DNA of 23,942 nt, from the IMG/VR virus record IMGVR_UViG_3300010389_000140, positions 1 through 23,942 of that record; one strand, written 5' to 3'. The DNA is from a virus. The notes below the pieces were generated by a model. That model saw only the letters and a list, made by a program, of their open reading frames with translations. It was not told the origin of the DNA and did no database searches. Position numbers and translations under genes: made by a program. Of this stretch, positions 17,318-23,942 are shown piece by piece (positions within the stretch are counted from its first letter, which is position 1; every line of letters starts with the position of its first letter).

Positions 17318-18087
17318 TAGATTACGCGAGTTTTTTCATGCCCCACACGAATTCGCGGATCACACCAGATATCAAACCCTGCTTCCTTTGCATCAAGACA
17401 GAATGAGACATCTTCTCCACACATGTCTTGTACTGCACCAGACTCAAAGACTTGCATCTTTGGAGCAAACCAAGGATACTCAAGATTCTCAAAAACACCC
17501 TTTTGAATGAGCACCCATCCAAAACCTGTATAATCCACAGTGAAAGGCTTACGCCGCTTACTGATCGATTCTACAGTTTCGTGGTTCATGACTCCACCAT
17601 TATTGCGGAAATCATCTTCTTCTAACCAATGTGCAACTGATGTAGTACGACCATCTTCAGTACAATACCAACCAGCAACAATTTCTTTTTCTTCCCCTTC
17701 TTCGTTCAATGCAAGATCACAAAGTTGCCAAAACTTATTTGAATCAAAAACAATATCACTATCAATCCATAGTTGATAATCATATTCAAGTTTCCCATCC
17801 CAAGGAATTTGCTTTGGTCCACGAAGAACATTTGCACCTAAACACTTACAACGTGCAAAGTTAACCATTGATGAATAATCTTGACTAATCTGAATACTCA
17901 TTCCATTTTGTACAAGATCAAAACAAAGTTGTACAAATGCTTTTAGAAAAATAAAAGAACATCCACGACCAGGAAGACAAAAAACAATTGACTTGCCTCT
18001 CATCCTTTCCTTGATTGCTTCATAGTCCCATTCAGTTCCTTCTGATTTAATTGGTGCTTTTGCTTTTACAGTAAATCCTTTTGCCAT
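17317..18087 (-). CDS. Glycosyltransferase-like (GT-A fold) protein, 256 residues
   Basis: After a lysine-rich N-terminus, a strand IVFCLPGRG (about residues 34-42) starts the fold. YQLWIDSDIVF (104-114) supplies a DxD-like D109-S110-D111, the usual nucleotide-sugar/metal site of GT-A enzymes. GEDVSFCLDAKEAGFDIWCD (224-243) with the following VGH matches the ED...G...(D)P...GH end of family-2-like transferases. It probably transfers a sugar to a phage or host component, but the acceptor is unknown and it could be a degenerate structural relative. It carries nine Cys, more than expected for a simple GT-A enzyme. The gene starts a coupled set with the 52- and 44-residue genes. Upstream minus-strand sequence has CATATATAGAC, a possible promoter element. 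Confidence 0.82.
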   Translation of the reverse strand: MAKGFTVKAKAPIKSEGTEWDYEAIKERMRGKSIVFCLPGRGCSFIFLKAFVQLCFDLVQNGMSIQISQDYSSMVNFARCKCLGANVLRGPKQIPWDGKLEYDYQLWIDSDIVFDSNKFWQLCDLALNEEGEEKEIVAGWYCTEDGRTTSVAHWLEEDDFRNNGGVMNHETVESISKRRKPFTVDYTGFGWVLIQKGVFENLEYPWFAPKMQVFESGAVQDMCGEDVSFCLDAKEAGFDIWCDPRIRVGHEKTRVI

Positions 18088-18141
18088 AAGAAAAATAAAC
18101 CTTCAGTTCAATTTTAACAGTCTATATATGTCTTGTCAATA

Positions 18142-18333
18142 TTAATGAGATGAATTTAAAATCGTCTCCTTATTTACATACAATTCCTCATAAGACAAAT
18201 CCTCAACACTATAATCAGTCTTCATTAGACCAACCATATTGTTGAGTGTATTCCAAGTTGCTTGGAAATCTTCTTCTTTTATCGAATGAAGTAAACATCT
18301 ATCCTTTGCATAGATGTGATAAACCTTATCCAT
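18142..18333 (-). CDS. Small conserved hypothetical protein, 63 residues
   Basis: MDKVYHIYAKDRCLLHSIKE leads into an EEDFQATWNTLNNMVGLM helix and an acidic DYSVEDLSYEELYV stretch. I recall closely similar proteins in marine T4-type cyanophages, always annotated as hypothetical. A CCGGAGAT ribosome binding site precedes the ATG. It follows the 53-residue membrane protein gene by 35 bases and precedes the glycosyltransferase-like gene by 54 bases. Confidence 0.8.
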   Translation of the reverse strand: MDKVYHIYAKDRCLLHSIKEEDFQATWNTLNNMVGLMKTDYSVEDLSYEELYVNKETILNSSH

Positions 18334-18368
18334 ATAAAAAATATCTCCGGAATTTTTTGTAGTAAACC

Positions 18369-18530
18369 TTAATTCACTACCGCATTATATATCAATACAA
18401 TCAAAAACCCAAGGGGGAATAATATAATTCTTCCCATTGTCTTTGGATATCTGATTATCCAACCTGCGAGTATCACCCTCCAAAAATTCCAGTAAGGATT
18501 TCTATGGTGGCGGTTTTTGAGTGCTGTCAT
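18369..18530 (-). CDS. Small membrane protein, 53 residues
   Basis: The product starts MTALKNRHHRNPYWNFW. Its first part is basic and aromatic, followed by two hydrophobic stretches: VILAGWIIRYP (about residues 19-29) and a clear membrane helix IILFPLGFLIVLIYNAVV (about 35-52). The positive charges lie N-terminal of the main helix, predicting an inner-membrane protein with the N-terminus inside. A CCGGAAG site precedes the ATG. It is the first gene on the structural side of the boundary. The role is unknown; superinfection exclusion, lysis control or membrane anchoring would all fit and none is shown. Confidence 0.72.
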   Translation of the reverse strand: MTALKNRHHRNPYWNFWRVILAGWIIRYPKTMGRIILFPLGFLIVLIYNAVVN

Positions 18531-18774
18531 ACTTCCGGAAAATTTTTATGAGATTGATATATCTTGGTCGATTTGTCACCTCTGTAGGTTAGGGTAGTTA
18601 TCGATTTTTATAAACGCAACGCCCGATATAAACAATAAACAATAAATTAAATTAACTGCGAATAAGAATACGAATAAACTGCGATTGCACGAATAAAGAA
18701 TTACAAACTCACTGTGTAATTAGAATTAACTAAGAAAGGGGAGAAGTATAACTTACTCCCCTATCAGTTAGTAA
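18531..18774. other. Non-coding boundary with AT-rich direct repeats
   Basis: No convincing reading frame is seen on either strand. The stretch contains AAACAATAAACAATAAAT (about 18628-18645) and three copies of CGAATAA (about 18659-18700), two preceded or followed by ACTGCGA. A terminator-like hairpin lies at its right end, and a minus-strand TATAAAAATC (about 18607-18618) might serve as a -10 box for the 53-residue gene. It separates the structural cluster from the accessory genes. Confidence 0.5.
18736..18763 (-). terminator. Hairpin after the 46-residue gene
   Basis: Minus-strand AGGGGAG pairs with CTCCCCT with an inner AAGT/ACTT extension, and TTTCTT follows. It begins about a dozen bases past the stop at 18775, the right place to end the accessory operon that starts near 19691. 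The U-tract is short, so efficiency is uncertain. Confidence 0.55.
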
Positions 18775-18915
18775 TCAGAACTCGATAGGATCTGCAGTGG
18801 GTTCGTTGTTACTTACCTCAGCAGATTCATCACTCATCAGTGTATCCAGAATTGACAGAATCTCAGTGCCAGTGTTACCTTGAGCAAGCAGAGAAAGCAT
18901 CACGGTCTTAGACAT
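18775..18915 (-). CDS. Small hypothetical protein, 46 residues
   Basis: MSKTVMLSLLAQGNTGTEIL continues as SILDTLMSDESAEV and an acidic-polar tail ending DPIEF. I recall similar MSKTVMLSLLAxGNTGxEIL starts in cyanophage small proteins with no known role. It is probably helical in the first 30 residues and disordered after that. No clear Shine-Dalgarno is visible, but a minus-strand GACTATAAAC about 45 bases upstream may be a -10 box. It is the last gene before a terminator-like hairpin. Confidence 0.7.
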   Translation of the reverse strand: MSKTVMLSLLAQGNTGTEILSILDTLMSDESAEVSNNEPTADPIEF

Positions 18916-18991
18916 AATAACGAAAGAAAAGAGTAGAGAACTGTTCGGTGTTAGTTTATAGTCATAACCCAGGACTGTTTGTGTTACTAAC

Positions 18992-19183
18992 TCAACGAAC
19001 TTGTGTCACAAAGTTAGTGCCACTGCTACGGTTAGTTCTACAACGATTCCCCTTAGTTTGTGTCATGATCAGATCAGAACTACGGGGTTTCACTGTTGCT
19101 AACCGTGTCACCTTTACTTTACCTTGAACCTCAGCAATCACGAGGTCGATGTTAGACAGTGTTGCGAACTGGGTAACAGTCAT
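18992..19183 (-). CDS. Small basic hypothetical protein, 63 residues
   Basis: MTVTQFATLSNIDLVIAEVQ is followed by GKVKVTRLATVKPRSSDLIM and an Arg/Lys/Asn-rich tail. The product is basic and unlike its mostly acidic neighbours. I do not recognise a family. The frame fits the spacing of the operon (36 bases after the previous stop, 76 before the next start), but no Shine-Dalgarno is visible; the leader contains CCACCACAC, also seen before the 83-residue gene. The last codons contain a near-palindrome ACTTGTGTCACAAAGT. Confidence 0.55.
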   Translation of the reverse strand: MTVTQFATLSNIDLVIAEVQGKVKVTRLATVKPRSSDLIMTQTKGNRCRTNRSSGTNFVTQVR

Positions 19184-19219
19184 GATCGAAAAGTGTGGTG
19201 GGGTTGGTGTTACTGGAGA

Positions 19220-19471
19220 TCAGAGATCTTCCAGCATTTCGTTGATCTCAATGTGGTTAATCTTTGCAGAATCCCACTTCACACCGTCAGGAGTTTCAGT
19301 AGAACCACATTCATAAAGACCAGCGATCACATCATCATATGAATCACAACGTTGGGCGAAATCATACAAACCAGGATCATTCTGAATCCACAGAGATACA
19401 TTCCAGGTCTCATAATTCGTCCAACCGTTATAGTTGGTGTCGGTGATGTTGGTCTGGAAAGTGGTGGTCAT
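19220..19471 (-). CDS. Small protein with an NYETWxVxLW motif, 83 residues
   Basis: The signature is NGWTNYETWNVSLWIQND (about residues 15-32), shared by a widespread family of small phage and bacterial proteins of unknown function. The rest is acidic, with a RCDSYDDVIAGLYECG segment and a helical NHIEINEMLEDL end. The start has no Shine-Dalgarno but a CCACCACACAATC leader. It lies 34 bases after the cassette-A gene and is probably read from the same promoter. Confidence 0.8.
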   Translation of the reverse strand: MTTTFQTNITDTNYNGWTNYETWNVSLWIQNDPGLYDFAQRCDSYDDVIAGLYECGSTETPDGVKWDSAKINHIEINEMLEDL

Positions 19472-19505
19472 GAGAGTGAAGATTGTGTGGTGGAAAGTGT
19501 GAGAA

Positions 19506-19691
19506 TCAACCGTCGAAAGAGTGTCGGGGATTCTTTACACCCCAGAAACCGAATCGACCGCAAAGGTTACAGAAACCTTCGAACTCCCAATCAGTTGCAG
19601 CATTGTCATTCTCACGAAGTGCGCGAAAGAAAAACTCACGCTCACGGGTGGTGAGATCATCAATGCTGCGGGTTGCGGTGTTGGTGTTCAT
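19506..19691 (-). CDS. Small hypothetical protein with a CxxC, 61 residues
   Basis: I choose the start at 19691 (MNTNTATRSIDD) because GAGGAA lies at the correct distance and the upstream codons run through a promoter cassette. The protein has a charged helix LTTREREFFFRALREND and then WEFEGFCNLCGRFGFWGVKN, a single CxxC in an aromatic context. One CxxC could bind metal only as a dimer or with other ligands (a His lies near the end), so zinc binding is speculation. It is the first gene of cassette A. Confidence 0.75.
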   Translation of the reverse strand: MNTNTATRSIDDLTTREREFFFRALRENDNAATDWEFEGFCNLCGRFGFWGVKNPRHSFDG

Positions 19692-19726
19692 CGGTGTGTG
19701 TTCCTCGACCCTTTTATAATCCCATA
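19692..19726 (-). promoter_or_regulatory. Cassette A promoter and leader
   Basis: Reading the minus strand: ATCTATGGGAT, a TATAAA -10 box (19713-19718, 22 bases before the ATG), then GTCGAGGAACACACACCG and the start codon. The GTCGAG...ACACACCGATG leader recurs before three other genes. The GAGGAA part is the ribosome binding site. Confidence 0.7.
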
Positions 19727-19749
19727 GATCGGTGGAGAGATCAAGAGGT

Positions 19750-19777
19750 CTTGTGCCAGAGATTTGACTGGCACAAG
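19750..19777. repeat. Cassette A dyad/stem-loop
   Basis: A perfect 10-bp inverted repeat, CTTGTGCCAG and CTGGCACAAG, has an 8-base loop; its core is TGTGCCA-N10-TGGCACA. The centre is 48 bp upstream of the -10 box, and the element starts 10 bases after the stop of the 105-residue gene. No U-run follows, so it may be an operator, a stem-loop terminator without a U-tract, or both. Confidence 0.75.
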
Positions 19778-19787
19778 GTATAAACAA

Positions 19788-20105
19788 TCAATCCAGAATC
19801 ATACCCTCATCAAACACAATGTCTCCGCTGTTAGTTGATACAAACCACTCACCCTTTTTCTGATAGATTCGCTCACCATTCCCGTGCTTGGAAAGAATAG
19901 CATTGAGGCGGGATTTTGTGGTGTTTGTTTTCCACCCACAGTTGAAGATCTGCAACCAAGTGTCACCAATGGTTGCAATGTGATTACCATGAAGCATCAC
20001 ATAGTTTGCATCACGCTCAGGAGAATAGATCACCTGAGTGTTATCATTCTTCCAGTTGATGCACTTGTTGATTGCATCATTCATCTGGGTTTCGATCTTG
20101 CGCAT
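19788..20105 (-). CDS. Phage protein with an NTTKSRLNA motif, 105 residues
   Basis: The start is set at 20105 (MRKIETQMNDAINKCINW) because the 32 codons upstream run through cassette B. The protein has a YVMLHGNHIATIGDTWLQIF segment, the signature GWKTNTTKSRLNAIL (about residues 57-71), and RIYQKKGEWFV near the end. I recall this combination in small proteins from many unrelated phages; their role is unknown to me. The leader has GTCGAGATCACC instead of the GAGGAA ribosome binding site of the other cassettes, so translation may be weaker or differently controlled. Confidence 0.82.
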   Translation of the reverse strand: MRKIETQMNDAINKCINWKNDNTQVIYSPERDANYVMLHGNHIATIGDTWLQIFNCGWKTNTTKSRLNAILSKHGNGERIYQKKGEWFVSTNSGDIVFDEGMILD

Positions 20106-20140
20106 CGGTGTGTGGTGATCTCGACCTTTATAGAATACAT
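20106..20140 (-). promoter_or_regulatory. Cassette B promoter and leader
   Basis: Minus-strand TATAAA (20127-20132) lies exactly 22 bases before the ATG, followed by GTCGAG and CACCACACACCG. It is the same layout as cassette A, but lacks a clear Shine-Dalgarno. Confidence 0.65.
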
Positions 20141-20165
20141 GATTTTGAACCCTGTGCTCATTTAT

Positions 20166-20189
20166 TGTGCCACTAATACTTTTGGCACA
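20166..20189. repeat. Cassette B dyad
   Basis: TGTGCCA and TGGCACA are separated by exactly 10 bp, as in cassette A, and the centre is again 48 bp upstream of the -10 box. The flank GGTATCAACAATCA also matches cassette A (GGTATAAACAATCA), so the whole block is a duplicated unit. Confidence 0.72.
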
Positions 20190-20212
20190 TGGTATCAACA
20201 ATCAGGGGCAAC

Positions 20213-20386
20213 TTACCACTTATCAGGTACACTTAGATCCTCAACATAAGCATCACACTTCTCTGCAGGTTCCAACTCAAATAACTTCTCCCAGTCAATC
20301 TGATGTGGGTCGAAGTCAGGAAACGCCTGAATGTCCAGAGTGACCCTATAACGCTGCTTCTGTGCTTGAGAATACGCAACCGACAT
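20213..20386 (-). CDS. Small acidic hypothetical protein, 57 residues
   Basis: MSVAYSQAQKQRYRVTLDIQ leads to AFPDFDPHQIDWEKLFELEP and an acidic end VEDLSVPDKW. The (Y)RVTLDI...F.DF.PHQIDWEKLFELEPAE pattern is one I recall from cyanophage small proteins of unknown role. An AGGAGC ribosome binding site precedes the ATG. It is served by the minus-strand TTGACA promoter at 20414-20442, and cassette B follows its stop. Confidence 0.8.
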   Translation of the reverse strand: MSVAYSQAQKQRYRVTLDIQAFPDFDPHQIDWEKLFELEPAEKCDAYVEDLSVPDKW

Positions 20387-20413
20387 AAGTTTGCTCCTGA
20401 TGTGTATGGGAAT

Positions 20414-20442
20414 ACTCTAAGATGCTATGAGGTTTATGTCAA
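20414..20442 (-). promoter_or_regulatory. Leftward sigma70-like promoter
   Basis: On the minus strand TTGACA (20437-20442) and TAGAGT (20414-20419) are separated by 17 bases. The -35 is perfect and the -10 matches four of six positions. It lies 28 bases before the start of the 57-residue gene and belongs to a divergent pair with the promoter at 20513-20541. Confidence 0.65.
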
Positions 20443-20677
20443 GGGGTTGAGCGTATTTATCAGGGCCTGGTGTTATTTTTGAGAGATCTGTGTGGATTTT
20501 GTGACGGGGTGCTTGACATTTTCGCGGAGTTCTGATACAATGCTCGCTAAGATAACAAGACCTCAGCACATTTATAAGACCATAAATGTCAGACCTGAGC
20601 ACATTTATAAGACCATAAATGTCAGACCTCAGCACATTTAGAGAGACATAAACACATACTATCTGATACGAATTCAT
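20417..20677 (-). CDS. Doubtful repeat-containing reading frame, 86 residues
   Basis: An ATG at 20677 has a strong Shine-Dalgarno (AAAGGTGAT) and opens a frame across the 33-bp repeats, giving the in-frame 11-residue unit LRSDIYGLINV. The second half reads through both promoters and is Cys/Arg/Pro-rich with no protein-like pattern. I think the frame is more likely an accident of a 33-base period than a gene, but the start signal is too good to leave out. Confidence 0.22.
   Translation of the reverse strand: MNSYQIVCVYVSLNVLRSDIYGLINVLRSDIYGLINVLRSCYLSEHCIRTPRKCQAPRHKIHTDLSKITPGPDKYAQPLDINLIAS
20513..20541 (+). promoter_or_regulatory. Rightward sigma70-like promoter into the hairpin repeats
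   Basis: TTGACA (20513-20518), a 17-base spacer and TACAAT (20536-20541) give a near-consensus promoter on the strand opposite to every gene here. The predicted start is near 20548, just before the 33-bp repeats. No supported protein gene lies downstream on this strand, which suggests a non-coding transcript. Confidence 0.65.
20558..20653. repeat. 33-bp tandem repeats, two with a perfect hairpin
   Basis: Two full units (20558-20590 and 20591-20623) differ at one base, and a decayed third follows (20624-20653). Each full unit holds AGACCTCAGC or AGACCTGAGC, then ACATTTAT, the loop AAGACC, and ATAAATGT, a perfect 8-bp stem on either strand. AGACC occurs both in the linker and in the loop. The third unit keeps the linker but loses the pairing. 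Confidence 0.85.
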
Positions 20678-20690
20678 ATCATTATCACCT

Positions 20691-20800
20691 TTCAATAACA
20701 ATAATTATCAGCAATACAAAACATTCATTTATATTTTTAATTACATTTTTAATTGATTTTTATTGTTTTTTAGCATAAAATCACCTCTTTAACAATAAAA
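20691..20800. other. AT-rich stretch with short direct repeats
   Basis: Very AT-rich non-coding DNA with two TTTTTAATT copies, two ATAAAATCAC copies 21 bp apart (20775-20784 and 20796-20805) and T-runs on the plus strand that could end a rightward transcript. On the minus strand TCACCTCTTT (20781-20790) reads as a near-perfect Shine-Dalgarno before a reading frame of only 11 codons (20741-20776). Confidence 0.5.
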
Positions 20801-20938
20801 TCACACATAAACATCCTCACCTTCTACATCACAGAACTCCATCAGATAATAATCAAGAGTAACACCTACCTGTTGTGCTTCAGTATAATACTCTTGATAT
20901 TGTTGACCATCAAGAATAAAGTAATCAGTTTCAATCAT
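20801..20938 (-). CDS. Small acidic Tyr-rich protein, 45 residues
   Basis: MIETDYFILDGQQYQEYYTE, AQQVGVTLDYYLMEFCDV and an EGEDVYV tail give seven Tyr and many acidic residues. I do not recognise a family. The start overlaps the stop of the previous gene by 8 bases (ATGATTGA) with no separate ribosome binding site, so translation is probably coupled. It is the last gene of the cassette-C operon. Confidence 0.68.
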   Translation of the reverse strand: MIETDYFILDGQQYQEYYTEAQQVGVTLDYYLMEFCDVEGEDVYV

Positions 20939-21044
20939 GAGTTCGATAGTATTCACGACGTTCGTAATCTTCTGCACTCATGTAATCATCATGTTCACGA
21001 TCTTCCTCTTCATAATAGTCATCAAACTTTTCAGAATCAGTCAT
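20931..21044 (-). CDS. Very acidic Tyr-rich protein, 37 residues
   Basis: MTDSEKFDDYYEEEDREHDD followed by YMSAEDYERREYYRTHD has 16 Asp/Glu and 6 Tyr in 37 residues. The family is unknown. The charge pattern would suit a nucleic-acid-mimicking or protein-binding peptide, which is only a suggestion. The ATG overlaps the previous stop by four bases (ATGA), and its own stop overlaps the next start by eight. Confidence 0.65.
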   Translation of the reverse strand: MTDSEKFDDYYEEEDREHDDYMSAEDYERREYYRTHD

Positions 21045-21205
21045 AATGAATTAAATTGATTTACGATACGTTGTGCTTCTTGTGATGAGTTACATCTGGT
21101 GATAATGTAACTATAACCGAATGAGAATGTTCTACGAATCTGATTACCTTCTTGTGTATAAGATCCATGTTTGACTGGTATCAGATTCAGAAGAGATTTG
21201 ATCAT
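21041..21205 (-). CDS. Small hypothetical protein, 54 residues
   Basis: MIKSLLNLIPVKHGSYTQEG, NQIRRTFSFGYSYIITRCNS and SQEAQRIVNQFNSL look like a small domain with a beta hairpin followed by a helix. The C-terminal SxEEAQRxV-type helix recurs in the 43-residue protein (21817-21948), so the two may be distant paralogues. ATGA overlaps on both sides show translational coupling. Confidence 0.68.
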   Translation of the reverse strand: MIKSLLNLIPVKHGSYTQEGNQIRRTFSFGYSYIITRCNSSQEAQRIVNQFNSL

Positions 21206-21387
21206 TTTGCATTATCAATGAGATCTTGTTCAATTTGATTCAGTGTTTGAACTGTCCAGTTGGCGATGTCACCATGAGGTGCATACAGTTGACTATAACG
21301 AAATCCATAAAGATCAGGATTTAGATCTTGCAACTTTTCAAGAGTTTCAGCAATTTGAACACTGAGTTGGTGTTGAGTTTCAGTCAT
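21202..21387 (-). CDS. Small hypothetical protein, 61 residues
   Basis: MTETQHQLSVQIAETLEKLQ starts a mostly helical protein with a central YGFRYSQLYAPHGDIANW segment and an NQIEQDLIDNAK end. No family is recognised. It is coupled by four-base overlaps to the 141-residue gene before and the 54-residue gene after. Confidence 0.72.
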   Translation of the reverse strand: MTETQHQLSVQIAETLEKLQDLNPDLYGFRYSQLYAPHGDIANWTVQTLNQIEQDLIDNAK

Positions 21388-21809
21388 GAGAAATAAGAAT
21401 TGAAAAGGTTTTTAATTACATTGCCATCACACTTCTTTTGATATGATGCTTCACCTGTATGCCAGTTAGTAATACCCCACATAAGATCACCATTTGAATT
21501 ATAAAAGTATCCAGGGAAATGAATACATGAACTGACATGTTTCATATAGAAATTATAAAGTTGTTCAAAGAAGTTAGCATAACACTCTTCGATACAATAC
21601 AATCCTCTTACTGGTCGATGCAATTCAATTCCTAAAAAGTCACACAAGCATCGAATGTTCTCGATATTAAATGCACCACTTGATTGAGATTTTCCTTGAT
21701 ACTTAACTCGAATTGCTTTGATTGGAACTAATTTTTGATCATTAACCTCAATCAAATCAGGCAGATTAGAATAACCGAAAAAAGCAGGATGAAAGATCTC
21801 GGTGTTCAT
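21384..21809 (-). CDS. Hypothetical protein, 141 residues
   Basis: The largest gene of the accessory region. I take the start at 21809 (MNTEIFHPAFFGYSNLPDLI), 7 bases after the previous stop; an upstream ATG at 21842 would overlap that gene by 26 bases. It is rich in aromatic residues and has a core IRCLCDFLGIELHRPVRGLY, then CYANFFEQLYNFYMKHVSSC, and a Trp-containing LMWGITNWHTGEASYQKK. Five Cys and several His could bind metal but form no known motif. The function is unknown. Confidence 0.75.
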   Translation of the reverse strand: MNTEIFHPAFFGYSNLPDLIEVNDQKLVPIKAIRVKYQGKSQSSGAFNIENIRCLCDFLGIELHRPVRGLYCIEECYANFFEQLYNFYMKHVSSCIHFPGYFYNSNGDLMWGITNWHTGEASYQKKCDGNVIKNLFNSYFS

Positions 21810-21816
21810 GATTGAA

Positions 21817-21948
21817 TCAAATAAGTTGGGCAGGTGATCCACAAGAACGATAGAAATCTACCATCCTTTGTGCTTCTTCAAGTGTAGAGAATGATTGTGT
21901 TCTCCACTCACAGTTGTTATAAGGCGTTTGATACTTAATTGTGAACAT
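21817..21948 (-). CDS. Small hypothetical protein, 43 residues
   Basis: MFTIKYQTPYNNCEWRTQSF, STLEEAQRMVDFYRSCGSPA and QLI suggest a two-strand hairpin plus helix (FSTLEEAQRMVDFY), a compact fold frequent in tiny phage proteins. Its ATG overlaps the previous stop (TAATG). Compare the 54-residue protein with its SQEAQRIV helix. Confidence 0.7.
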   Translation of the reverse strand: MFTIKYQTPYNNCEWRTQSFSTLEEAQRMVDFYRSCGSPAQLI

Positions 21949-22139
21949 TAGGCAATCACCTCAGACCAACGAATAGGATTGTTGGATGTTAATCTCCAGA
22001 TGATCATTGGTGCTCCACCTTCACTGATAGACCAATCAAATGCAACATCTTGAGCATCATCATAACTTGAACAATACTCTGCAGAATAATCATCAAACTC
22101 ACCAAATGACTTAGGTTGAACAGCAAACATTTCAGGCAT
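21948..22139 (-). CDS. Small acidic hypothetical protein, 63 residues
   Basis: The start is set at 22139 (MPEMFAVQPKSFGEFDDYSA), where ATGCCTGA overlaps the previous stop by 8 bases as in other genes here; an ATG three codons later is possible. YCSSYDDAQDVAFDWSISEG followed by GAPMIIWRLTSNNP suggests a helix and a strand, with the W-S-x-x-x-G pattern of small modification-like domains. The function is unknown. Confidence 0.68.
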   Translation of the reverse strand: MPEMFAVQPKSFGEFDDYSAEYCSSYDDAQDVAFDWSISEGGAPMIIWRLTSNNPIRWSEVIA

Positions 22140-22362
22140 CAGTAGCAGAAACAAAAGTGTTAAAGAACAAGTCCCATGCAGGATCATCAGCAACAAAAGA
22201 ATGAATGTTGCACTGATCACATACCCATTCGTATGCCATCTCACAATCTGCATTGATGTTCAACACAAAATCTTGCAGACCTTCGATTGCACTCAGAAAG
22301 GTGGAATCATTGATGAGAGACATACGAAACTTGTTGGTGTGCTGGTCTTGAATGATTGTCAT
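22132..22362 (-). CDS. Hypothetical protein, first gene of cassette C, 76 residues
   Basis: Start at 22362 (MTIIQDQHTNKFRMSLINDS), just behind an AGAGGAA ribosome binding site and the conserved ACACA leader. The body is acidic with CEMAYEWVCDQCNIHSFVAD, where C-x7-CxxC plus His could bind a metal ion (inference). It starts an eight-gene operon that runs to 20801. Confidence 0.76.
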   Translation of the reverse strand: MTIIQDQHTNKFRMSLINDSTFLSAIEGLQDFVLNINADCEMAYEWVCDQCNIHSFVADDPAWDLFFNTFVSATDA

Positions 22363-22400
22363 TTGGTTGTGTTCCTCTCGACTTCTATAGAATCCCATGA
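22363..22400 (-). promoter_or_regulatory. Cassette C promoter and leader
   Basis: Minus-strand CATGGGATTC, then TATAGA (22384-22389, 22 bases before the ATG), then GTCGAGAGGAACACA. Layout and leader match cassettes A, B and D, and it has the best Shine-Dalgarno (AGAGGAA). Confidence 0.68.
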
Positions 22401-22424
22401 ATCGGAGAAGAAATCAAGCGATAG

Positions 22425-22447
22425 TGTGCGGAGATTGAATTGGCACA
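22425..22447. repeat. Cassette C dyad (imperfect)
   Basis: TGTGCG and TGGCACA are separated by GAGATTGAAT, which resembles the loop of cassette A (GAGATTTGAC). One half-site is decayed. Its centre is about 49 bp upstream of the -10 box. There is no gene immediately upstream for it to terminate, which argues that its role is in the promoter. Confidence 0.6.
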
Positions 22448-22535
22448 TATGAAGCGTTTGATCGCTGCTGCTGGTATCGCCTCAAATCTCACCATGCGAC
22501 TCGATGAGATCCCTTGCTATCACTGAAGCAAAAAC
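22448..22535. other. Non-coding stretch upstream of cassette C
   Basis: No supported gene. The DNA is GC-richer than its surroundings. Very short frames on both strands (plus 22449-22526, minus 22385-22495) lack start signals, and one crosses the cassette. It might be a remnant of a displaced gene. Confidence 0.35.
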
Positions 22536-22606
22536 CTGATTTTTCTGCAATTCTACTGATCAGGTAGGATGTGTCATGCTCTACAATGAAATCACAGAAA
22601 AATCAG
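22536..22606 (-). terminator. Large inverted repeat after the cassette-D operon
   Basis: Perfect 12-bp arms CTGATTTTTCTG (22536-22547) and CAGAAAAATCAG (22595-22606) enclose 47 bases. On the minus strand the structure starts 6 bases after a stop codon and is followed by GTTTTTGC. The loop contains a second near-palindrome (CTACTGATCAGGTAG), and CCTGAT at 22535-22540 can instead pair with ATCAGG at 22559-22564. The position fits a terminator; the alternative pairings suggest possible attenuation. Confidence 0.55.
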
Positions 22607-22612
22607 TTATTA

Positions 22613-22768
22613 TCAATTATTGCGACGTTTCAGTTCTTCAACCAATAGATTCAAATACTCATTTGCTTCTGGTGTGTTTAAAAGTGCTGCATCTGAAATC
22701 TCAAAGGATAAATCAGAATCAGCAAGTTCCTTCAGTTCGTCTACAGTGTAGAATCCGTAATTAGTCAT
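22613..22768 (-). CDS. Small acidic hypothetical protein, 51 residues
   Basis: MTNYGFYTVDELKELADSDL leads to SFEISDAALLNTPEANEYLN and a basic end ELKRRNN; mostly helical. The family is unknown. Its start overlaps the previous stop by 8 bases (ATGACTAA). It is last of the cassette-D operon, followed at once by the large inverted repeat. Confidence 0.72.
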   Translation of the reverse strand: MTNYGFYTVDELKELADSDLSFEISDAALLNTPEANEYLNLLVEELKRRNN

Positions 22769-22964
22769 TGTCTAGTTCTTGAATAGTGTGAATGAGTTTG
22801 ATCAAAAGTTCACGAGTAAACTTTTCAACAATTGGTTTTGGTTCTTCACCTTCTTCACAATCATAATACAACTCACATTCATACTCATAGGCAAGATCAT
22901 CATCATAGAATGTAAGATTCTCAAGTTGTTGTTCGATCGCACGAATTATTCTTTCTTGATTCAT
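22761..22964 (-). CDS. Small acidic helical protein, 67 residues
   Basis: The start at 22964 (MNQERIIRAIEQQLENLTFY) has a strong GGAGGTGG ribosome binding site inside the end of the previous gene, so the upstream ATG codons are rejected. A central acidic block DDDLAYEYECELYYDCEEGE is flanked by two amphipathic helices. The function is unknown. Confidence 0.74.
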   Translation of the reverse strand: MNQERIIRAIEQQLENLTFYDDDLAYEYECELYYDCEEGEEPKPIVEKFTRELLIKLIHTIQELDND

Positions 22965-22965
22965 T

Positions 22966-23199
22966 TCAACCACCTCCATAAACATAGGACACAATACCTT
23001 CAGGATGATTGATATTCTCAATCACTTTAATTGGTGCAGAATTAAACTCTTTTTGAATTGCTTGATTGTGTTGATCATTATCTTCCCATCCAAACTCTTT
23101 CATAAAGAGTTCTTCACATTGAGGCATAGATTCTGCTGCAATGACACACATTCCATCAGTGTAATCATACAGCACTTCGTTGAGAATGTAGAGATTCAT
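22966..23199 (-). CDS. Small hypothetical protein, 77 residues
   Basis: MNLYILNEVLYDYTDGMCVI, AAESMPQCEELFMKEFGWED and an IVSYVYGGG end. The MNLYIL.EVLYDYTDGM.VI.A.S...C start is one I recall from cyanophage small proteins, function unknown. A strand-helix-strand layout is likely. The final Gly codons contain the ribosome binding site of the next gene. Confidence 0.76.
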   Translation of the reverse strand: MNLYILNEVLYDYTDGMCVIAAESMPQCEELFMKEFGWEDNDQHNQAIQKEFNSAPIKVIENINHPEGIVSYVYGGG

Positions 23200-23201
23200 G
23201 A

Positions 23202-23387
23202 TCAGTTCAGAGTGAAAGGAACGGTAGCAAGAACATTATCATCAACATCACACTTTTCATAGATCCATTCATCATCCTCCACATTCAAATAAGTATGCAG
23301 AACACCATTGGATTCTTCTTTCATAAATGCACCAACGTATTTGTCATAATCATAACCAGAAGCAAAAAGTGCATCAACAAAAGTCAT
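23202..23387 (-). CDS. Small acidic hypothetical protein, 61 residues
   Basis: MTFVDALFASGYDYDKYVGA, FMKEESNGVLHTYLNVEDDE and WIYEKCDVDDNVLATVPFTL suggest an alpha plus beta mini-domain rich in Asp and Tyr. No family is recognised. The ATG overlaps the previous stop by four bases. Confidence 0.72.
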   Translation of the reverse strand: MTFVDALFASGYDYDKYVGAFMKEESNGVLHTYLNVEDDEWIYEKCDVDDNVLATVPFTLN

Positions 23388-23569
23388 AGTTCAATGCTCC
23401 AATCAGAATCGTTGAAAAGATTAACCCAGAAGAAGTTTTTGCCATTCAGTGATCGTAGAAATACACGATCACCTTTGTTTTGTTCAATAATACACTCCGA
23501 TTCTTGCCCCATAAGATTACAGAATCGGTTGCGTGCTTTCTTACTCTTTGGTGTCACAAATGCAGTCAT
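23384..23569 (-). CDS. Small conserved hypothetical protein, 61 residues
   Basis: The pattern KKARNRFCNLMGQESECIIE, then NKGDRVFLRSLNGKNFFWVN and NDSDWSIEL, is one I recall from cyanophages and hypothetical there. A short basic helix is followed by a beta-rich part. It is the second gene of cassette D, 3 bases after the first. Confidence 0.78.
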   Translation of the reverse strand: MTAFVTPKSKKARNRFCNLMGQESECIIEQNKGDRVFLRSLNGKNFFWVNLFNDSDWSIEL

Positions 23570-23572
23570 GAT

Positions 23573-23890
23573 TCAGAACTCCAGAGTAGACATTGAACGA
23601 CGCATGTTGCTGCTCAGAAATAAGCAACCCCAAGAATCAAACTTGAACCAAGGCGCAATCGTGAAAGTTCCAGGCACTTCCTTACACTCTTTCAGTGCTT
23701 TCTTTGGAAACCAGATCGTGTGTCGTGGAGTGAGAATAGAACCAAACTGGATTGCTTTTTCAGTCTCTTTAATCTTCTGAACTGGCAGAATGTTAAAGTT
23801 GTGCTTGCGTCCCAGGTTGATGATACAAACATCGTTCTCGTCGATGTTATCATGAACCTGATTGCTGCTTGCGGTTTTGGTGACTGTCAT
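23573..23890 (-). CDS. Hypothetical protein, first gene of cassette D, 105 residues
   Basis: MTVTKTASSNQVHDNIDEND continues as VCIINLGRKHNFNILPVQKI and, near residues 54-80, ILTPRHTIWFPKKALKECKE followed by VPGTFTIAPWFKFD. It is beta-rich with basic and aromatic residues, possibly a small barrel. The family is unknown. AGAGGAACACACCCG precedes the ATG, the same leader as cassette C. It starts a six-gene operon ending at 22613. Confidence 0.76.
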   Translation of the reverse strand: MTVTKTASSNQVHDNIDENDVCIINLGRKHNFNILPVQKIKETEKAIQFGSILTPRHTIWFPKKALKECKEVPGTFTIAPWFKFDSWGCLFLSSNMRRSMSTLEF

Positions 23891-23928
23891 CGGGTGTGTT
23901 CCTCTCGACTTCTTTAATATACACGATC
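23891..23928 (-). promoter_or_regulatory. Cassette D promoter and leader (dyad beyond window end)
   Basis: Minus-strand CGTGTATATTAAAGAAGTCG gives a TATATT/TATTAA -10 box near 23914-23920, then GTCGAGAGGAACACACCCG. By the spacing of the other copies the dyad would be centred near 23962, just outside the window. Confidence 0.62.
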
Positions 23929-23942
23929 TGGGATGCAGTGCT

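Follow-up and report, generated by a model that had tools for sequence, protein, structure and literature searches.

The segment at positions 20513–20772 of a 23,942-nt stretch of viral DNA (hereafter the window), an IMG/VR fragment of a T4-like cyanophage, is probably a replication origin of these phages (Kyanoviridae), at which transcription and a set of short boxes would assist the opening of an AT-rich element. The module consists, in this order, of a promoter, the string GCnnGCwAAGATnACAAG, one to five units of ~33 bp, three to four boxes, and an AT-rich stretch, and it is present once per genome as a rule. A promoter, spaced repeats, boxes, and a low-stability element, combined in non-coding and usually single-copy DNA, make up the anatomy of a replication origin, and the boxes and the AT-rich element look like origin DNA sites. 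The module, common to T4-like viruses of ocean cyanobacteria, may be the start point of their DNA copying. GC skew was monotonic in the window and carried no origin signal; since almost every gene is on the same strand, it is unusable for locating an origin.

Promoter, start region, and flanking genes

The plus-strand promoter TTGACA-17-TACAAT (20513..20541) is of the sigma-70 type with an extended −10, a TG preceding the −10, and is supported by conservation and the promoter-region profile R1. The initial annotation had counted it among the best promoters of the window and had seen no plus-strand gene behind it. The latter holds in the window, and the promoter itself stands with a score of 11/12; its motif score, however, does not exceed chance, as the region contains 105 promoter-like sites versus 99 ± 11 in shuffles. 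The motif alone is thus no proof, and the proof lies in conservation, which was assessed in 72 loci, including the window, with at least 200 bp upstream of the divergent gene. All 72 carry a plus promoter scoring at least 9/12, 70 of them with an exact TTGACA −35, at a median distance of 129 bp (range 126–148) from the divergent start codon. Pairwise comparison puts the promoter of SynMITS9220M01 and S-SM2, the closest isolates at the module, at the same place as that of the window.

The promoter is followed by the conserved start region GCTCGCTAAGATAACA (20542..20557, plus strand; consensus GCnnGCwAAGATnACA, the longer form of which is the string given above), which contains the predicted transcription start; an AAGATnAC-like sequence occurs at this place in 70/72 loci. 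Sequences of the form TTGACn-17-TAAGAn/TAAGCC, lacking a TATAAT-like −10, are observed in P-HM2 (35.6 kb), P-SSM4 (51.0 kb), S-SM1 (48.9 kb), and S-PM2 (19.3 kb). The occurrence of TAAGAn/TAAGCC at 17 bp in divergent phages raises the possibility that the conserved GCTAAGA functions as a −10 or as a protein site in its own right. Since the plus promoter is kept without a coding function in most relatives, its transcript is probably non-coding.

The conserved left neighbor of the module is a small divergent gene on the minus strand (20213..20386; 57 aa, phrog_12516, function not assigned), which served as the query that retrieved 80 IMG/VR loci. This gene is also found apart from the module in L086 (S-B05) and L087 (P-TIM68), so that gene and module are separable. 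A motif search placed a divergent minus-strand promoter, TTGACA-17-TAGAGT, at 20414..20442, and a similar one was recognized by eye in SynMITS9220M01 and S-SM2. On the right, the non-coding region is limited by a small convergent ORF of ~45 aa (20801..20938, minus strand), the frame of which was read by eye and to which the DNA of L078 is similar. No plus-strand intrinsic terminator was found in 20541–23449. The sole match in a search for UvsY/UvsW beside the module was a general helicase family (phrog_16) in Bellamy, ~8 kb off.

Tandem units and the hairpin RNA reading

Repeat comparison resolved three tandem, iteron-like units of ~33 bp at 20558..20656 on the plus strand, namely 20558–20590, 20591–20623 (97%), and 20624–20656 (73%), in agreement with the two units and the decayed third described initially; the 8-bp stem with an AAGACC loop is likewise present in the first two units of the window. 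Among relatives, the copy number ranges from one to four in the loci retrieved with the divergent gene and reaches at least five in L112, and the period is mostly 32–35 bp (overall 32–36). Tandem direct repeats of constant spacing beside an unwinding element, which characterize iteron origins, are therefore seen here, while some relatives have a single unit. The unit starts in L019, L030, L045, L123, and others alternate between AAGACC and AAGGTC, as they do between CTGAG and CTCAG, which would enable neighboring units to pair. A 94-aa minus-strand ORF (20417–20701), which has an 11-aa repeat and crosses the 33-bp units, was judged an artefact and rejected as coding because of the unit length of 32–36 bp in relatives and the TTG start of the ORF.

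Although the plus promoter is strongly conserved (72/72 loci), non-coding DNA lies downstream of it, and the leader of the window folds better than its shuffles (z −2.47), it is unlikely that this promoter yields the small non-coding RNA of the initial annotation, whose repeated AGACC loops would let it serve in trans as a decoy or antisense RNA. Comparison of the stems across relatives, one of the checks suggested there, goes against it: just 2 of 92 units, both of them in the window, have stems of at least 8 bp, and 15% of the 92 units have stems of at least 6 bp versus 9% after shuffling. The leaders of 63 non-redundant loci fold just slightly better than shuffles and show no strand bias (mean z of −0.78 on the plus versus −0.97 on the minus strand), the leader of single-unit relatives such as S-SM2 does not fold, and neither covariation-like nor strand-biased folding of the repeats was found. 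In relatives, the AAGACC element is often replaced by its reverse complement AAGGTC; hence, neither the loop sequence nor the complementarity to GAGG that had been attributed to the AGACCTC linker is kept. Conservation is stronger in the boxes and the AT-rich element than in the RNA hairpins. A trans-acting small RNA would be expected to have a conserved secondary structure or seed and a 3′ end defined by an intrinsic terminator, and neither was found for this transcript. Rfam returned no family match at threshold for 18000–23942 of the window, and an exact search for the repeat gave no match in viral and bacterial collections. A comparison with plasmids also gave no match. The sole cyanophage non-coding RNA that we came upon in the literature is the antisense RNA CfrI of S-PM2 (PMC5931967), which lies 3′ of psbA; the module has no sequence or positional link to it.

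Box cassette and AT-rich element

The units are followed by a cassette of three to four oriented, non-palindromic boxes of ~10 bp, which occupies the same slot in all classes distinguished among 53 non-redundant loci. Class A, in which TTTTCCACA is repeated with its last copy inverted, accounts for 18/53 loci, including S-SM2 and S-SCSM1; class B (TGATACGAAT...ATCATTATCA...ATAATTATCA) for 16/53, including the window; and class C (ATTCTCAAnAATAA...TTGATTCTCAATAA...TTATTGAGAATGA) for 13/53, including S-SRM01 and a degenerate copy in Bellamy; other cassettes, among them the D type of L071, make up 6/53. In the window, the class B cassette (20664..20710, plus strand) comprises three boxes, TGATACGAAT in inverted orientation (20664–20673), ATCATTATCA (20678–20687), and ATAATTATCA (20701–20710), in the slot taken by the TTTTCCACA DnaA boxes of class A relatives. 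On the flanking-gene tree, which is weakly resolved, the cassette classes need at least 17 changes versus 20.5 under random placement. This closeness to random placement points to a cassette that is swapped while the promoter and the AT-rich element remain constant, and it appears that the boxes have been exchanged among lineages. It is possible, and we advance it tentatively, that the module is a family-wide origin in which the swapped cassette carries either boxes for host DnaA or sites for so-far-uncharacterised initiators (classes B, C, and D), such that these phages would switch their replication initiator.

Most cyanobacteria have TTTTCCACA as their DnaA box (PMC4674748). In one cyanobacterial family, 38/38 genomes (a set without marine picocyanobacteria) contain paired copies; clusters of class B and class C boxes occur in 0/38 genomes of this family, so that one of its host proteins is not suggested for these classes. 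A resemblance of the class B and C boxes to Fur boxes is conceivable. A search of 24 cyanophage records for exact TTTTCCACA-N0-30-TGTGGAAAA gave matches exclusively at the module, and the reversed control pattern gave 0 matches. Carriers of the exact pattern are three IMG/VR genomes, S-PM2 (inverted pair at 19231), Syn9 (52565), S-SM1 (48835), P-TIM68 (58194, 185 bp upstream of the promoter of this phage), and DSL-LC03, in which the inverted pair at 80123 lies past the AT-rich element, and the promoter is preceded by five boxes at 80507–80579. S-SM2 has three copies of TTTTCCACA in 190 kb, two of which are at the module. The module of the window contains no DnaA boxes, and the link to DnaA thus depends on relatives: of the two hallmarks of a DnaA-dependent origin, the DnaA-box cluster is absent from the window and present in class A relatives, and the adjacent low-stability AT-rich element is present.

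Two further observations concern DnaA boxes. The 284-kb IMG/VR contig G003 has two copies of the module, at 29.2–29.4 kb and 239.1 kb, with a DnaA box cluster at each; the second cluster, at 29.4 kb, is adjoined by a second, weak match to the promoter profile, and the contig represents either a phage with two origins or an assembly chimera. In S-PM2, the annotated tRNA-Asn and tRNA-Leu overlap the DnaA boxes and the AT-rich element (L164/L176; S-PM2 19177–19333). ARAGORN finds no tRNA in an 8-kb S-PM2 stretch over the module, and these two annotations are thus probably false.

DnaA is dispensable in some cyanobacteria and doubles as a transcription factor. It is conceivable, yet improbable, that replication does not start at the boxes and that they instead bind host DnaA or further host regulators, either as a means of controlling the divergent promoters or to sequester a regulator. 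Their location within a divergent intergenic region and the frequent swaps of their identity, which a change of target regulator could bring about, would agree with this. However, the boxes are located 3′ of the plus promoter, their association is with the AT-rich element and not with any gene, the module is kept in other gene contexts, and the copies per genome would be too few for titration before replication.

The AT-rich stretch TTTATATTTTTAATTACATTTTTAATTGATTTTTATTGTTTTTTA (20728..20772, plus strand), a candidate unwinding element supported by pattern, profile, and stability, gives a place to the T-rich DNA that had initially been reported downstream. Its consensus, TATATTTwwwAATACATTTTTAATtGATTTT, is common to all cassette classes. 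In the window, it coincides with the 60-bp stretch of lowest stability, and its counterparts rank second in S-SM2 and seventh in SynMITS9220M01. A search with the AT-rich pattern that ignored flanking genes yielded 29 IMG/VR loci, other genomic surroundings included, with boxes and repeats upstream wherever the sequence suffices and a TTGACA-type promoter also upstream where the locus reaches that far.

In ~10 relatives, the AT-rich element is replaced, in several of them by a gene for a GIY-YIG endonuclease; the GIY-YIG ORFs (PF01541; two distinct ones were confirmed with Pfam) are of the plus-type strand and lie 290–400 bp past the divergent start codon. Seven retrieved loci (L005, L025, L036, L040, L057, L068, and L079) have a plus-strand GIY-YIG-like ORF directly behind the cassette, which would fit a promoter and leader of a homing endonuclease since lost from the window. 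This origin of the module is very unlikely, since the AT-rich element is disrupted at the endonuclease site and most relatives lack the gene yet have the promoter, boxes, and AT-rich element. A packaging or recombination hotspot (pac-like or terminase-linked), with which one intergenic, repeat-bearing module per genome would agree, is highly implausible given that there is no tie to terminase genes, that DnaA boxes and a low-stability element would be unexpected, and that T4-like phages package by the headful mode, a strict pac site being absent.

If the module is a replication origin, early transcription by the host polymerase from the plus promoter would pass through the units and open the AT-rich element, either with an R-loop acting as primer, the mode of T4 oriF/oriG, or through transcriptional activation. 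A protein bound to the boxes would help to melt the element and load the replisome; this protein would be host DnaA in class A relatives, whereas the class B boxes of the window are not DnaA boxes. The plus-strand RNA would then act as a primer or opener rather than as a trans-acting small RNA.

Distribution among isolates and known origins

Two profiles built on sequence only, R1 for the promoter region and R2 for the AT-rich element, were run on 17 isolates. Both matched on the same strand, ~60–110 bp apart, in three phages that were not in the training set, namely P-TIM68 (R1, E 6.7e-7; R2, E 1.3e-3), S-SSM7 (R1, E 5.6e-3; R2, E 6.1e-3), and DSL-LC03 (R1, E 8.6e-5; R2, E 0.1). S-B05 has an R1 match (E 1.3e-5) and an AT-rich stretch seen by eye, S-PM2 an R2 match (E 4.3e-4) adjoining the DnaA boxes, and Syn9 a weak R1 match adjoining its boxes; P-SSM4 and P-HM2 appear similar by eye, with TTGACn-17-TAAGAn and AT-rich DNA. 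In the divergent phages S-PM2, Syn9, P-SSM4, and P-HM2, the promoters, judged by eye, are weaker and the order is partly different. No convincing profile match was obtained in P-SSM2, S-RSM4, and ACG-2014f.

T4-like cyanophages belong to the most abundant viruses of the ocean, and a literature search conducted mostly outside subscription journals turned up no publication on where their replication origin lies. If true, the proposed assignment would provide a testable origin in the well-studied isolates S-PM2, Syn9, S-SM2, S-SM1, and P-TIM68, link phage replication to host DnaA, reveal a natural series of initiator-site swaps, and make the module usable for finding origins in metagenomic contigs.

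Among known systems, T4 oriF and oriG are each made up of a promoter and an A+T-rich element, in which synthesis is primed from an R-loop formed by the transcript (PMC3016281). The module is similar to oriF (ori uvsY) and oriG in that a promoter is directed into an A+T-rich unwinding element, which is ~100 bp in T4 (PMC3016281), and in its overall length of ~100–250 bp, its location near gene 25, and the opener or primer role proposed for the RNA (PMC3016281; T4 record). As read from the sequence, a promoter is positioned to direct RNA into the element in 72/72 loci, and the A+T-rich element lies 3′ of the promoter. However, oriF and oriG use a MotA-dependent middle promoter, whereas the module has a full −35/−10 (TTGACA in 70/72) and no middle-mode promoter with a MotA box; it would therefore be oriF-like in its working and is not classed as a member of the T4 oriF type. 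It further differs in the box cassette and tandem units between the promoter and the AT-rich element and, unlike oriF, is oriented against the gp25 transcription unit. T4 oriF adjoins gp25 (T4 record), whereas the module, at a distance of ~4.5 kb from it in both the window and S-SM1, is on the opposite side of this gene, so that the synteny is suggestive only. In T4, the GIY-YIG gene segE is near the oriF region; in cyanophage relatives, GIY-YIG ORFs are at the AT-rich slot. T4 oriE shares with the module evenly spaced direct repeats, or iterons (PMC3016281), which are 12 nt in oriE and ~33 bp in the module. Lastly, cyanobacterial oriC resembles class A modules in its direct and inverted TTTTCCACA boxes beside an AT-rich element (PMC4674748), from which the module differs in its location in a phage genome, the transcription unit that runs through it, its few boxes, and, in the window, its class B cassette.
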